A DNA stretch of 64,000 nucleotides, taken from NCBI GenBank assembly GCA_004322215.1, contig SCSM01000027.1, positions 1-64,000 of the forward strand, in the 5' to 3' direction. Position 1 is the stretch's first letter; the number at the start of each line of letters is the position of its first letter. The position numbers were made by a program, and so were the translations under genes. This document shows positions 25,331 to 64,000 of this stretch, piece after piece. This DNA is from Bacteroidota bacterium. GTDB taxonomy: Bacteria > Bacteroidota > Ignavibacteria > Kapaibacteriales > UBA2268. The notes under the pieces were generated by a model. That model saw nothing but the letters and a program-made list of their open reading frames with translations, ran no database searches and was not told where the DNA came from.

Positions 25331-26461
25331 ATGTTTTATTATCTTGCTTTATGGATTAGACAAACCTGGCATCTGCCGGGATTCGGCGTATTTCAATACA
25401 TTACTTTCAGAGCCGCAGCAGCAGCGATTACTGCACTGCTCATCAGCTTTATCTTTGGACCGAAAATCATCCGAGCTTTGAAAAAACGTCAAATCGGTGA
25501 GCAGGCAAAAACCGAATTAACAGACATTGGCAGCCATTCTCTCAAAGCGGGAACCCCTACAATGGGCGGCTTAATTGTCCTTCTCGCACTTTTATTACCG
25601 ACATTACTATGGGCTGATTTATTGAATATGTTCGTAATACTTATTATTCTCACAACTGCCTGGCTCGGAGCAGTCGGTTTTCTCGACGATTATTTAAAAG
25701 TGATTAAGAAATTACCAAACGGATTAATTGGGAAGTATAAGCTGGTTGGGCAGATAGCAATCGGATTAATAGTCGGTTCAGTGATATTCTTCTTTCCTGA
25801 ACTATTTTCAAAGAATTTTGAAAAATTCAATACTCTAACAACAATACCATTTGCCAAAGACTTCAACTTTGATTTCGGATGGTTTTACATTCCGATTGTT
25901 ATATTCATTATAACAGCAACATCCAATGCAGTTAATCTCACTGATGGATTGGACGGACTTGCAATGGGAACTGTGGGAATAGTAATACTTGCTCTTGGAA
26001 TAATAAGTTACGTCACAGGGAATGCAGTTTTTTCAGATTACCTGAATATAATGTATCTGAGAGGAACTGATGAGCTCGTAATTTTCTGTTCAGCATTAGT
26101 CGGGGCATCGCTGGGATTTTTATGGTTTAATGCCTATCCTGCCCAGGTATTCATGGGAGACACCGGTTCTCTTGCATTGGGTGGAGCAGTCGGATGCTTA
26201 TGTGTATTATTAAAAAAGGAATTTCTATTACCGATACTTGGTGGTATTTTCTTCGCTGAAACTGTTTCAGTTATACTACAAGTATCTTATTTCAAATACA
26301 CACGCAAACGCTATGGCGAGCCGCGCCGTTTATTTAAAATTGCTCCTTTGCACCATCATTTCGAGAAATCCGGCTGGCACGAATCCAAAATCGTTGTCCG
26401 ATTCTACATAATGGCGGTTATGCTTGCGATAATAGCAATGACCACGTTTAAGGTGAGGTGA
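25331..26461 (+). CDS. mraY: Phospho-N-acetylmuramoyl-pentapeptide transferase
   Basis: MraY moves phospho-MurNAc-pentapeptide onto undecaprenyl phosphate, making lipid I in the inner membrane. The 376-aa protein has about ten helices and the signatures GTPTMGGL, FLDDYLKV (Asp pair), NLTDGLDGLA, GASLGFLWFNAYPAQVFMGDTGSLALGG and APLHHHFEKSGW. The normal next gene murD is absent; instead a repeat-rich, apparently inserted region follows. The last 42 bases recur imperfectly at 27164-27205. Confidence 0.96.
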   Translation: MFYYLALWIRQTWHLPGFGVFQYITFRAAAAAITALLISFIFGPKIIRALKKRQIGEQAKTELTDIGSHSLKAGTPTMGGLIVLLALLLPTLLWADLLNMFVILIILTTAWLGAVGFLDDYLKVIKKLPNGLIGKYKLVGQIAIGLIVGSVIFFFPELFSKNFEKFNTLTTIPFAKDFNFDFGWFYIPIVIFIITATSNAVNLTDGLDGLAMGTVGIVILALGIISYVTGNAVFSDYLNIMYLRGTDELVIFCSALVGASLGFLWFNAYPAQVFMGDTGSLALGGAVGCLCVLLKKEFLLPILGGIFFAETVSVILQVSYFKYTRKRYGEPRRLFKIAPLHHHFEKSGWHESKIVVRFYIMAVMLAIIAMTTFKVR

Positions 26462-27163: not shown

Positions 27164-27205
27164 ATGCTTGAGATTATAGCAATGGCAAAGTTTAAGGTGA
27201 GGTGA
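27164..27205 (+). pseudogene. Decayed duplicate of the mraY 3' end
   Basis: These 42 bases align without gaps to the last 42 bases of mraY (26420-26461), with 37 identities by eye including the final 16 (GTTTAAGGTGAGGTGA). Translated in the mraY frame it would read MLEIIAMAKFKVR-stop against MLAIIAMTTFKVR-stop. No other mraY-like sequence precedes it. It may be a relic of a duplication or an attachment-site-like repeat left by insertion of the intervening 700 bases. Confidence 0.7.
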
Positions 27206-27214
27206 AAAAAAGAT

Positions 27215-27385
27215 TTAATCAAAATCTTCAATAATTTCTTTTATGTCTTTGTAAGTATATTTCTCAATTACATTATTTTCTAACATAATTGTTAATTCCT
27301 CTCCGTCCCAATACCAGTCATCGAATGGTTCGGTAGTGTAATGAAGATATCTATCTATTAAATTTCCTTGTGTTTGAATGTCCAT
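27215..27385 (-). CDS. Small acidic hypothetical protein (56 aa)
   Basis: An ATG at 27385 opens 56 codons ending TAA at 27215. The protein starts MDIQTQGNLIDRYLHYTTEP, is rich in Asp/Glu/Tyr/Trp (FDDWYWDGEELTIMLENN) and ends KDIKEIIEDFD. The acidic, aromatic composition looks like a real small folded or partner-binding protein. No Shine-Dalgarno is obvious. It lies 90 bases downstream of the putative nuclease on the same strand and could be a third component, but I recognise no family. Confidence 0.5.
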   Translation of the reverse strand: MDIQTQGNLIDRYLHYTTEPFDDWYWDGEELTIMLENNVIEKYTYKDIKEIIEDFD

Positions 27386-27474
27386 TTATATAAAATCAAA
27401 AATTGCTTCTTAAATCACTTCGTTTCAAAAAAGTGGTTTTTATAAGGTTACCACAATTATTGCAAACATTGTTT

Positions 27475-28392
27475 TCATATTCCATAATATTTGCCTGTTA
27501 AATTATGATACCAATTATAAACATTAGTATAATCCAGAAAAGTTACTTTGTCAATTAATTTGTTTTGTTTGAAAGTTGGTCTATTAATTTCCTTACCAAA
27601 CTTACTCTCTCTTTCATTATTTGCAACTATATTAAAATTATCAGAACCTGATATTGTCAATAAAACATCATTAAATCTTAACAAACCAGAATAAATTGGT
27701 GTAGAATGCTCAACTTCATAGAAAGATATTGGTTTTGATTTGTCAAGCCAGATAACATCAATTTCAGAAATTATATGGTCAACTTCTTTGCTAAAAGTAG
27801 GTAATTTTTCAATAACTTTTGTATAATCAACAATAGCTGAGTCAATTTTTTGTTTATCACTTTCTGGATACCAAATATTATATCCTTTTTTTATTCCTAT
27901 TGAACCTATAATTGATTGAATTTGAGTATGTGATAATTCAGGAATAGATATTTTTGTTTTAGTAATATTTAATATATCCTCTAGACTAAAATAATTTTCT
28001 GCATTAAATTTTCCTATTCCAGCAAAATAAATTTCAGAGCCTGTCGGTTTAAATAAAGTTTGGGTTTTATATTGACCATCATTTGAAGGTGATGTTTCTA
28101 AGAAATAAGTTTCGAATTGTTGATAAGGTATAAATAGATTTTTTGTTTCATCATCAGTAACTAAACAAATAAAAGATTTCTTACTCTGCATTAATTTTAT
28201 ATCTTCATTTCGAAGGCCATAAAACGTTCTTAAAACATTTTTACTCACTTTTGAAATTTTAGAATATCTGAAATATACTATAGTATCAATTGATGGAATC
28301 AAATACAAAGAGTATCCATCACCAAGTCTTTTTAATTTTCCATGCTTTTCTTCTAAAGAAGTAATAACATTTCTTGTGAAAATATTTGCCAT
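27475..28392 (-). CDS. Putative PD-(D/E)XK restriction-like endonuclease
   Basis: This 305-aa protein has a C-terminal nuclease-like core: IDVIWLDKSKPISFYEVEHSTPIYSGLLRFNDVLLT. Asp212, Glu226 and Glu228 fit the D...(E)xE variant of the PD-(D/E)XK active site, followed by a helix with S/T and R as in many restriction enzymes. The N-terminal ~120 residues (GDGYSLYLIPSIDTIVYFRYS; YGLRNEDIKLMQSKKSFICLV) look like a separate domain, possibly for DNA or modified-base recognition. It is AT-rich, 53 bases downstream of the unknown 28446-29249 gene, and no methyltransferase adjoins. Restriction or anti-phage defence is inferred from motif and context. Confidence 0.6.
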   Translation of the reverse strand: MANIFTRNVITSLEEKHGKLKRLGDGYSLYLIPSIDTIVYFRYSKISKVSKNVLRTFYGLRNEDIKLMQSKKSFICLVTDDETKNLFIPYQQFETYFLETSPSNDGQYKTQTLFKPTGSEIYFAGIGKFNAENYFSLEDILNITKTKISIPELSHTQIQSIIGSIGIKKGYNIWYPESDKQKIDSAIVDYTKVIEKLPTFSKEVDHIISEIDVIWLDKSKPISFYEVEHSTPIYSGLLRFNDVLLTISGSDNFNIVANNERESKFGKEINRPTFKQNKLIDKVTFLDYTNVYNWYHNLTGKYYGI

Positions 28393-28445
28393 AATAACTG
28401 CATTGTTTTTAAATGAAAAAATTGTAAAAAAGATTTCTTTACTAA

Positions 28446-29249
28446 TTATTTAATTAAAAAAGGATTCAAATAGTTAATAAATTCTCTGTTTGTTGGTTTA
28501 TAAATTAAATTGTTATTTATTAACTTTCGTAAAGTTGATAAAATAAGATTTAGATTAAACTTATTAATATTAATTTTTAATATAAATTCATTAACCATAA
28601 TTGATTTCATTATTATGTTCATAATAGTATTGATTCTTCCTGTTTTTTTATTCTTAGAATCAAAATATGGTTTCCCATTAATAGTATGATATTTGACATC
28701 TTCATTCCAGCCAAGTAAATCAACAAAATGTAGAAATTCTAATAATCCAATTTCTTTTGTATTAAATTTATCTAAAAAACCATCTTTCAATCCAAATTCT
28801 ATTTTTTCAATATAATCCAATATAGATTTTGAAGGATGATATCTATACTTTCCGGGTTTGATTTCCAAATGGTCTAAAAGAAAACAATTTCTATATAAAA
28901 TGACTAATACTTTCTTAAAGGTTATTTGATTTATGATAGAAATTTTAATAAGATACTCCCATAAATTTTCGAAAGTCCAACCATCAACTTCATTTATTCC
29001 ATTATTCCATATTCCAGGAAACATATCATGAATATTTGGATTAGCTTTTCGAAAATATTCTTTTCCAGGTTTATAAAAGCAAACTTCCTTACTATCAAAT
29101 AGAGTTGTAATATGTGTTTTCTTTGGTTTATTCTTTGTACCTAACTTAAACAGAATTGCTTCTGATATTCTTACTTTTCTCTTTTCATGAAAATCCGGTA
29201 TCCTACCTTTTAAAATCTTTGTTTCAATTATTTTGTAGTCATTATCCAT
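28446..29249 (-). CDS. Unrecognised protein paired with the putative nuclease
   Basis: The frame opens at a TTG at 29258, but the ATG at 29249 (MDNDYKIIETK) is preferred, giving 267 aa. The sequence is Lys/Ile/Asn-rich and mainly helical after residue 90, with GWTFENLWEYLIKISIINQITFKKVLVILYRNCFLLDH and a C-terminal LILSTLRKLINNNLIYKP. The N-terminal third contains KKTHITTLFDSKEVCFYKPGKEYF. I see no signal peptide, membrane helix or catalytic motif I can name. It lies upstream of the nuclease gene on the same strand and would be its operon partner, perhaps a specificity or sensor subunit. Confidence 0.6.
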   Translation of the reverse strand: MDNDYKIIETKILKGRIPDFHEKRKVRISEAILFKLGTKNKPKKTHITTLFDSKEVCFYKPGKEYFRKANPNIHDMFPGIWNNGINEVDGWTFENLWEYLIKISIINQITFKKVLVILYRNCFLLDHLEIKPGKYRYHPSKSILDYIEKIEFGLKDGFLDKFNTKEIGLLEFLHFVDLLGWNEDVKYHTINGKPYFDSKNKKTGRINTIMNIIMKSIMVNEFILKININKFNLNLILSTLRKLINNNLIYKPTNREFINYLNPFLIK

Positions 29250-29431
29250 AAATTTCAATACTAAAAAATTAGATTAAATATATTTTCTTCATATTCTTTC
29301 ATATTTTTTCTGCAAATTTATATAATTCTAAAATATAGTTTATTTTTATTTCAAAAATCACAATAAGATAGCATACTCCAAAGGGATAATTTTCAACACT
29401 ACCCCAAATTTTTCATTTAAAAAAATAATCG

Positions 29432-62424: not shown

Positions 62425-64000
62425 ATGGTAATGAATCCAAAAGACCTCTTTAATGGTGTAGATATAGATAAAATCATTAACGACCCGGATTTCAAGGAAG
62501 ACAGTGTCAGAGAGGTTTTTGTATTGCCAATATTGAAAGAGTTAGGATATCATCAAAAGGATATAACCAGAAGCAAAACATTGAAACACCCTTTCTTAAA
62601 AGTAGGAACAAAGAAAATACCGATTACACAAGTCCCTGATTACCTAATAAAAGTTGAGAATAGCTATGCCTGGGTATTAGATGCAAAATCACCACGTGAA
62701 AGTGTTACCGAACCTGATAATATCGAACAGGTTTTTTCTTATGCCATGCATCCTGAAGTCAGAAGCACTTATTTTGCATTATGTAATGGGATAGAATTTG
62801 CACTATATCGAATTGGTTATTCAAATGAACCTGTTTTGCATTTTTCGATGGTTGAAATTGAACATTACTGGGAAAAATTAAAACAATTTTTATCACCTGA
62901 GAGTTTTCAGGTTGGAAAATTAATTACTTATGATACTACATCTGCAACAGCAAAACCGATAGGTTTTGATTACGGCACAAGGCCTCTACTCGAAGAAATT
63001 CCGGTAAGAAAACAAGCGGCAAAAAGACACTTTGGAGTTCATGGGTATTTTACAAAACAAAGTTGGAATGTTGTTGCAACATATATCAGGAACTTTTCAA
63101 AACCGGGAGATTTGGTATTGGACCCATTCGGCGGAAGCGGCATAACTGCTATCGAAGCGATGATGAATGACAGGAAAGCTATTCATATTGATATTAATCC
63201 ATTAACAGAGTTTATTATAAATTCTTTGATTTCACCGGTTGATTTTGAGGAATTAGGTATTGCATTCGATAAAGTAATTAAAGCCTTTGAAAAACAAAAG
63301 CCAAAAAATAAAACAGATTATTATGAAATATTAAGAAAATATAAATATCCTCAAAACATAACTTTGCCAAAAAGTTCAGATGTTGACAAATTAGAATTTT
63401 TATTTACAACAAAACAATTAGCACATTTAGCATTATTGAAAGCTATAATTAAAAAAGAAAAAAATAAAAGTATCAGAAACACTTTATTGTTGGCTTTTTC
63501 AAGCAGTTTAAATAAGTACAATAAAACTTTTCATTATACTAGGAGCGAAGGTGGTGGAGATAGCGGTCCTTTTAGATATTACAGGTATAGAATAGCTCCA
63601 AATCCTGGAAAATTAGAATTAGAGCGAATTTTTAAAATTAAATTTAATAAAATATTTTTTGCAAAAAAAGATGTTAAAATTAAGATAAATAAACATACCA
63701 TTGAAAATATTAAAGTTGTTAAAGGAACAGCTACTGATTTAAGCTGGATACCTTCCGAAAGTGTTGATTATATATATACAGACCCGCCTTATGGTAGTAA
63801 AATTCCATATTTGGACTTGTCAACCATGTGGAACTCTTGGCTTGATTTAGATGTTACTGATGAGGATTATAAACTCGAAGCAATCGAAGGCGGAGAACAT
63901 AATAAAACAAAATCAGATTATAATCATTTGATTTCGAAATCAATAGAAGAAATGTTCAGAGTTTTGAAATTCGACAGATGGATGTCATTTGTATTTGCAC
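62425..64000 (+). CDS. Putative nuclease-methyltransferase fusion (type IIG-like), 3' part missing
   Basis: An ATG at 62425 opens 525 codons without a stop to the window edge. The N-terminal domain looks like the HsdR-type nuclease: PDYLIKVENSYAWVLDAKSPRE places Asp72, Asp86 and Lys88 as a PD-(D/E)XK triad, followed by QVFSYAMHPEVRSTYFALCNGIEFALYRIG as in HSDR_N proteins. From about residue 220 it is an amino-methyltransferase: SAM motif I DPFGGSG (233-239) and catalytic motif IV TDPPYGS (Asp453). The long gap between motifs probably holds target recognition. Restriction and modification in one chain is the likely reading. Confidence 0.82.
   Translation, partial: MVMNPKDLFNGVDIDKIINDPDFKEDSVREVFVLPILKELGYHQKDITRSKTLKHPFLKVGTKKIPITQVPDYLIKVENSYAWVLDAKSPRESVTEPDNIEQVFSYAMHPEVRSTYFALCNGIEFALYRIGYSNEPVLHFSMVEIEHYWEKLKQFLSPESFQVGKLITYDTTSATAKPIGFDYGTRPLLEEIPVRKQAAKRHFGVHGYFTKQSWNVVATYIRNFSKPGDLVLDPFGGSGITAIEAMMNDRKAIHIDINPLTEFIINSLISPVDFEELGIAFDKVIKAFEKQKPKNKTDYYEILRKYKYPQNITLPKSSDVDKLEFLFTTKQLAHLALLKAIIKKEKNKSIRNTLLLAFSSSLNKYNKTFHYTRSEGGGDSGPFRYYRYRIAPNPGKLELERIFKIKFNKIFFAKKDVKIKINKHTIENIKVVKGTATDLSWIPSESVDYIYTDPPYGSKIPYLDLSTMWNSWLDLDVTDEDYKLEAIEGGEHNKTKSDYNHLISKSIEEMFRVLKFDRWMSFVFA

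Follow-up and report, generated by a model that had tools for sequence, protein, structure and literature searches.

The genes between mraY and the nucleotidyltransferase gene

The window (the whole stretch of 64,000 nucleotides analyzed here, which lies inside a 238-kb contig of a Bacteroidota genome) encodes three minus-strand genes in the interval between mraY and a nucleotidyltransferase gene (Table 1). The first-pass annotation had read them as three genes in a row, and the ORFs were confirmed where it had placed them, with products of 267 aa (gene 1), 305 aa (gene 2), and 56 aa. The length of gene 1 is counted from the ATG at 29249; the ORF list has a TTG start at 29258. Based on their translations, we take the genes before the interval to be murF and mraY, and those after it to be the nucleotidyltransferase gene, metK, and ahcY. 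The coding is AT-rich, as had been described, with about 21-27% G+C here versus 34-43% in the genes on either side. The relic of the mraY tail noticed next to these genes is real, and it is also present in the sister species. Estimates of dN/dS were 0.09 for gene 2 (against the copy in genome G015), about 0.2 for gene 1, and 0.08 for the 56-aa gene, the latter two with dS near saturation. All three genes are under constraint and are not random ORFs.

Table 1 Features of the locus, with the basis of each assignment
Feature	Position	Strand	Basis
mraY 3' end duplicate (relic)	27164-27205	+	88% over 42 nt to the mraY end, 26420-26461
56-aa acidic protein	27215-27385	-	Linked to DPDYN-type R-M operons
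MTase remnant: last ~6 codons and stop (IFDFI-stop)	27386-27405	-	L037 DNA alignment resumes, at L037:7700
29-codon ORF with CxxC zinc-ribbon start, overlapping the end of gene 2	27396-27485	-	Position, CxxCG motif
Replaced segment (place of the MTase, L037:6507-7699)	27406-28442	-	Flanks collinear with L037, 74-78%
Gene 2, 305 aa: unassigned N-terminal domain and C-terminal PD-(D/E)XK domain	27475-28392	-	PADLOC, conservation, AF2
Gene 1, 267 aa: orphan type II restriction endonuclease (probable) of an unnamed family, altered C-terminus	28446-29249	-	MTase-adjacent homologs

The suggestion that this position is a defense hot spot was borne out, since the content of the interval between mraY and the nucleotidyltransferase gene differs by species (G003, G002, and the window). 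In G002 (L125), the same slot displayed a different N6/N4 methyltransferase (MTase), a MutH-like endonuclease, and a toxin-antitoxin pair. In G015, mraY adjoins restriction-modification (R-M) debris, and the nucleotidyltransferase gene lies on a different contig, where it has no R-M neighbors, while in G001 the contig ends inside mraY. Elsewhere in the window, positions 62425-64000 (continuing to L028:4666) hold a 746-aa ORF that is nuclease-like at its N-terminus and carries a N6/N4 methylase motif region at its C-terminus. This ORF is probably a single-chain type IIG-like R-M enzyme.

Gene 1 and its C-terminal change

Gene 1 had initially been described as matching nothing known. This stands as far as family libraries are concerned, as no real match was found in Pfam, NCBIfam, PADLOC, or PHROGs, but the family does have a recognizable context. 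A scan of contigs from 84,980 species yielded 26 homologous loci, from Ignavibacteria, Planctomycetota, Nitrospirota, Nitrospinota, Bacteroidota, Bacillota, Archaea, and others, and at 24 of these 26 other loci the gene adjoins a DNA MTase. In 20 of the 26, the neighbor belongs to a N4/N6 MTase family with the motif GDPDYNVGINY or a close variant (hereafter DPDYN), which matched the PADLOC type II MTase model (MTase_II PDLC03337) with an E-value of 3e-119, and in 4 of the 26 it is a C5 MTase. At many loci, gene 1 is the only endonuclease candidate, with gene 1 and the MTase standing alone between housekeeping genes. By elimination, its genomic neighborhoods therefore make it almost certain that gene 1 encodes the endonuclease component of a type II R-M system.

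The family displayed 22 invariant residues, including those of KxGKE, NxxDMxP, and WNEDVKY, and the copy in the window keeps 22 of 22. No relatives were found in plasmids or viral contigs, and among 297 genomes of the phylum the gene matched only itself. The AlphaFold (AF2) model of gene 1 (pLDDT 90, pTM 0.90) had no Foldseek match in the PDB (best E=0.74), known PD-(D/E)XK nucleases included, and none among viral models. The family would accordingly represent restriction endonucleases that lie outside Pfam, NCBIfam, and PADLOC and have no fold match in the PDB.

The window copy of gene 1 is mosaic-looking: residues 1-60 are 88% identical to L037, while residues 121-170 are 46% identical to L037 versus 76% to L038 and L044. 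The homologs paired with C5 MTases (L046, L060, L061, and L062) are in some cases accompanied by a Vsr-like gene, so that one endonuclease family serves two methylation chemistries.

Three copies of gene 1, those of the window, L042, and L039, have no cognate MTase, and in the alignment all three displayed a five-residue gap near the C-terminus, from which an RG motif is missing. The adjoining HinfI-like MTase of L039 is unrelated and has its own endonuclease. The RG glycine is kept in all 22 other rows of the alignment and in L043, and the motif is present in every homolog with an adjacent cognate MTase. In a tree of residues 1-212, the three MTase-less copies do not group together. The association between RG and MTase loss is post hoc and comprises three cases, and the homolog of L058 retains the motif, yet displays no MTase before the contig ends.

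The sequence pattern suggests that the altered C-terminus leaves the enzyme disarmed or retuned, and gene 1 of the window is probably an orphaned and disarmed type II endonuclease. As a counterpoint, the preservation of all invariant residues together with a dN/dS near 0.2 fits poorly with a dead enzyme, unless the protein has taken up a new role. A change shared by three MTase-less lineages that do not form a clade offers a directly testable answer to how cells survive without the MTase.

Gene 2 and the place of the methyltransferase

By its active-site residues, gene 2 is a PD-(D/E)XK nuclease. The active site proposed from the sequence is well conserved, with D212 present in 17 of 17 relatives, E226 in 16 of 17, and E228 in 17 of 17; D212, V213, W215, E228, T231, Q159, and G166 are invariant among these 17. 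The protein matched the PADLOC model REase_II PDLC03534 (E=7.5e-11), and its residues 152-291 align to plasmid "type II restriction endonucleases". In the AF2 model, D212, E226, and E228 lie in a helix-strand-strand-helix-strand core with the expected order of elements. The best Foldseek match was a SPARDA nuclease (E=6e-3), followed by PvuII, I-Ssp6803I, and PspGI, with known PD-(D/E)XK nucleases among them; all are weak, with none at E<=0.001. No real match was obtained in Pfam, NCBIfam, or PHROGs.

The N-terminal 147 residues form a separate domain, as had been supposed from their distinct character. This domain belongs to no family: it matched no model in Pfam, PADLOC, or NCBIfam, and no modification-sensing domain was recognized in it. 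Some members of the gene 2 family, all of them distant relatives, carry a HARE-HTH domain in its place. Full-length gene 2 was not found in plasmids, phages, or viral contigs. The family is mostly stand-alone, without a neighboring MTase (G174, G173, G024, G070, and G078), and stand-alone copies are also encoded on plasmids of Sphingomonas, Novosphingobium, and Gluconobacter; the exceptions are members beside MTases in G018 and L055. The member at L055 (L055:5013-5750) is a HARE-HTH nuclease near a gene 1 R-M locus of Altarchaeum. By analogy with other stand-alone enzymes, gene 2 is possibly a modification-dependent nuclease.

A small zinc-ribbon gene stands directly after gene 2 in G174, G044, and G033, and at L106, L017, and L018 this gene is full-length. 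The 29-codon ORF of the window is a possible remnant of it, with a similarity that is too short to score. Further downstream, the 56-aa protein has a homolog directly after the MTase of L037 (67% identical) and another in L116 of G004 (42% identical), within a DPDYN R-M operon that has another endonuclease. This acidic FDDWxWDGEEL family (L116:3588-3764 and window 27215-27385) is found at DPDYN R-M operons with different endonucleases, and its members are possibly controllers or inhibitors.

The sister species G003, of the same genus, revealed what gene 2 has probably displaced. Its slot (L037), situated between mraY and the nucleotidyltransferase gene as in the window, encodes gene 1, an intact 401-aa MTase, and the 56-aa gene; L037 is identical to G003 at the MTase. 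The DNA of the window aligns to L037 at 78% through gene 1; the alignment then resumes, at 74%, with the ~6 final codons of the MTase and continues across the 56-aa gene. Gene 2 fills the gap left by the MTase exactly, and outside the replaced segment the window is collinear with L037. Hence, the earlier remark that no MTase is adjacent was accurate, as only those ~6 terminal codons are left, and a classical R-M system with an adjacent MTase is excluded.

Other genomes displayed comparable arrangements. In G015, a copy of gene 2 (86% DNA identity) lies between an N-terminal and a C-terminal piece of the MTase; this copy is frameshifted and stands beside MTase debris, with no gene 1. In L042, from Nitrospinota, gene 1 is followed by gene 2 and then by an MTase piece that begins at residue 264. 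The G044 copy of gene 2 has its end fused to the beginning of a DUF6996/6997-type endonuclease, a type that accompanies DPDYN MTases elsewhere in the family. In total, gene 2 meets pieces of DPDYN-type R-M systems in four genomes, and broken copies of gene 2 occur in G015, G044, and G033. An assembly chimera is excluded, since independent genomes also have gene 2 next to MTase pieces and the contig that contains the window extends over 238 kb. The MTase remnants suggest that the direction of change was from MTase to gene 2.

No close copy of the MTase was found in the window genome (G000), where the best match is 23% identical, and no close intact copy was found in the genomes of L042 and L039. 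The window genome is a 96.7%-complete draft, from which an MTase acting in trans could be missing. An anticorrelation between gene 2 and intact DPDYN MTases was also considered and set aside: 7 of 7 genomes fit, which is unremarkable for an MTase that is rare anyway (13 of 54 in the family).

Some features of these R-M systems deserve a separate mention. The MTase of L037 (6514-7719) has an extra N-terminal domain of ~120 residues that is missing from most relatives. The N-terminal MTase fragment of G015 (L016:3781-4020) is chimera-like, with a HinfI-like start joined to the DPDYN type at motif IV. The DUF6996/DUF6997 proteins (L110:5085-6731, L111, L116, L117, and L039:6615-7373) are, by appearance, endonuclease partners of MTases; those of L110 and L039 matched the Pfam models, and the MTase partner is of the DPDYN type, or HinfI-like in L039. 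The DPDYN MTase family is also paired with an unnamed 181-aa protein (L113 and L114).

Origin of the locus and comparison with known systems

We consider it reasonably probable that the locus is what remains of a type II R-M operon whose MTase was replaced by an autonomous PD-(D/E)XK nuclease, gene 2. Gene 1 would encode the restriction endonuclease of the former operon, the 56-aa gene would be an accessory of it, and gene 2 would act without needing a partner MTase. The proposal of the first-pass annotation that all three genes form one system does not agree with this picture: gene 1 and the 56-aa gene belong to an R-M operon that is complete in L037, while gene 2 takes the position of the MTase of that operon and its relatives are mostly found alone. 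The loss of the MTase would be survivable because the endonuclease has been disarmed or retuned by its C-terminal change. By analogy, gene 2 may provide defense by cutting foreign DNA with a modification or mark that is absent from the host. It has been argued that stand-alone nucleases should be expected to act on modified DNA, because they would otherwise be toxic (PMC11037411). If gene 2 reads the mark of the lost MTase, the two together would be lethal, and the repeated presence of gene 2 in broken MTase genes would follow from this. Conflict of this kind, of a methylase with a methyl-dependent nuclease, has been documented in the case of McrBC (PMC2614495), and an analogous conflict would explain why gene 2 and the MTase are not maintained side by side. 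The locus now most likely consists of an orphan endonuclease whose C-terminus is altered, together with an autonomous nuclease, at a hot spot of R-M turnover. An operon with a replaced methylase would illustrate how R-M systems can be rebuilt without being fatal to the cell.

Other explanations can be weighed against the same evidence. Co-occurrence of the two larger genes, to which the first-pass annotation had tied its proposal, was found in the Nitrospinota MAG of L042, where a homolog of gene 2 stands beside gene 1. Two phyla thus have the pair intact and side by side (54% and 61% identical). The MTase is missing from both genomes, the two gene 1 copies share the C-terminal change, and gene 1 and gene 2 are under purifying selection. 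All of this would suit a new MTase-independent restriction system of two proteins, composed of the C-terminal variant of gene 1 and gene 2, in which the former endonuclease works only with gene 2 as its partner. We regard this as possible, though unlikely: the pair occurs at just two loci, the variant gene 1 of L039 comes with no gene 2, gene 2 of G174 and G173 comes with no gene 1, and in G015 a frameshifted gene 2 lies beside MTase debris with no gene 1. It is equally doubtful that the C-terminal change is what made gene 1 a partner of gene 2, giving a two-nuclease, methylation-independent defense found in two phyla and involving a fold without a solved relative. Ordinary decay, in which the operon is being lost, gene 1 is dead or silent, and gene 2 is a chance neighbor caught in a snapshot of turnover, would fit with the different R-M sets that sister species carry in the same slot (L037 and L125) and with the broken gene 2 copies of G015, G044, and G033. 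However, both gene 1 and gene 2 have their full length, retain every conserved residue, and display low dN/dS, and gene 2 occupies exactly the position of the MTase and adjoins pieces of DPDYN-type R-M systems in four genomes, which makes simple decay quite unlikely.

It is improbable that the R-M system is merely separated, with another MTase of the genome protecting the sites of an active gene 1 and gene 2 serving as an extra defense. Separated systems are documented (PMC3488263), and the genome encodes at least seven full N6/N4 MTase domains, but none of these is close to the cognate one (best identity 23%), and the shared C-terminal change would be left unexplained. Highly improbable is a role of gene 2 as a selfish nuclease of the homing type that invades MTase genes by cutting them. 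It lies in or against MTase or R-M genes in 4 of the 7 genomes with close relatives, and one of its weak fold matches, I-Ssp6803I, is a PD-(D/E)XK homing endonuclease. Nevertheless, no two genomes share a junction (MTase residues 169|341, 264, and ~396), MTase sequence is deleted and not simply interrupted, and the copies of G174 and G173 are outside MTase genes. A homing endonuclease with a fixed site is excluded by the three different junctions.

Under the replacement reading, the nearest known systems are of several kinds. Type II R-M operons with a DPDYN N4/N6 MTase would be the source of gene 1 and the 56-aa gene, and unlike them the window has no MTase. The PADLOC REase_II PDLC03534 and Sphingomonas plasmid enzymes resemble gene 2 in their C-terminal PD-(D/E)XK domain with D...ExE and a glutamine in the first helix, and in being usually stand-alone, but they have a different N-terminal domain, that of gene 2 being recognized by no family model. 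The type IV wH fusion enzymes (PMC11037411) share with gene 2 the combination of a stand-alone nuclease, a second, possibly DNA-reading domain, and rare MTase neighbors, while the order of the domains and the N-terminal domain itself differ.

Solitary endonucleases beside broken MTase genes are known, with 74 cases described by Ershova et al. 2012 (PMC3488263), and for 116 of the 272 solitary endonucleases of that survey there was no firm explanation of how the cell survives with the enzyme but no protecting MTase. No description of an MTase replaced in place by a second nuclease was found in searches of open-access papers. Gene 1 resembles these solitary enzymes in being full-length, in having homologs with MTase neighbors, in lying by an MTase remnant, and in that no cognate MTase is linked to it or encoded elsewhere in the 96.7%-complete draft genome. 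It differs from them, as far as their descriptions allow the cases to be compared, in that the MTase of the window was probably replaced by an intact nuclease gene and not frameshifted or truncated, and in the C-terminal change that is common to the MTase-less copies of gene 1.
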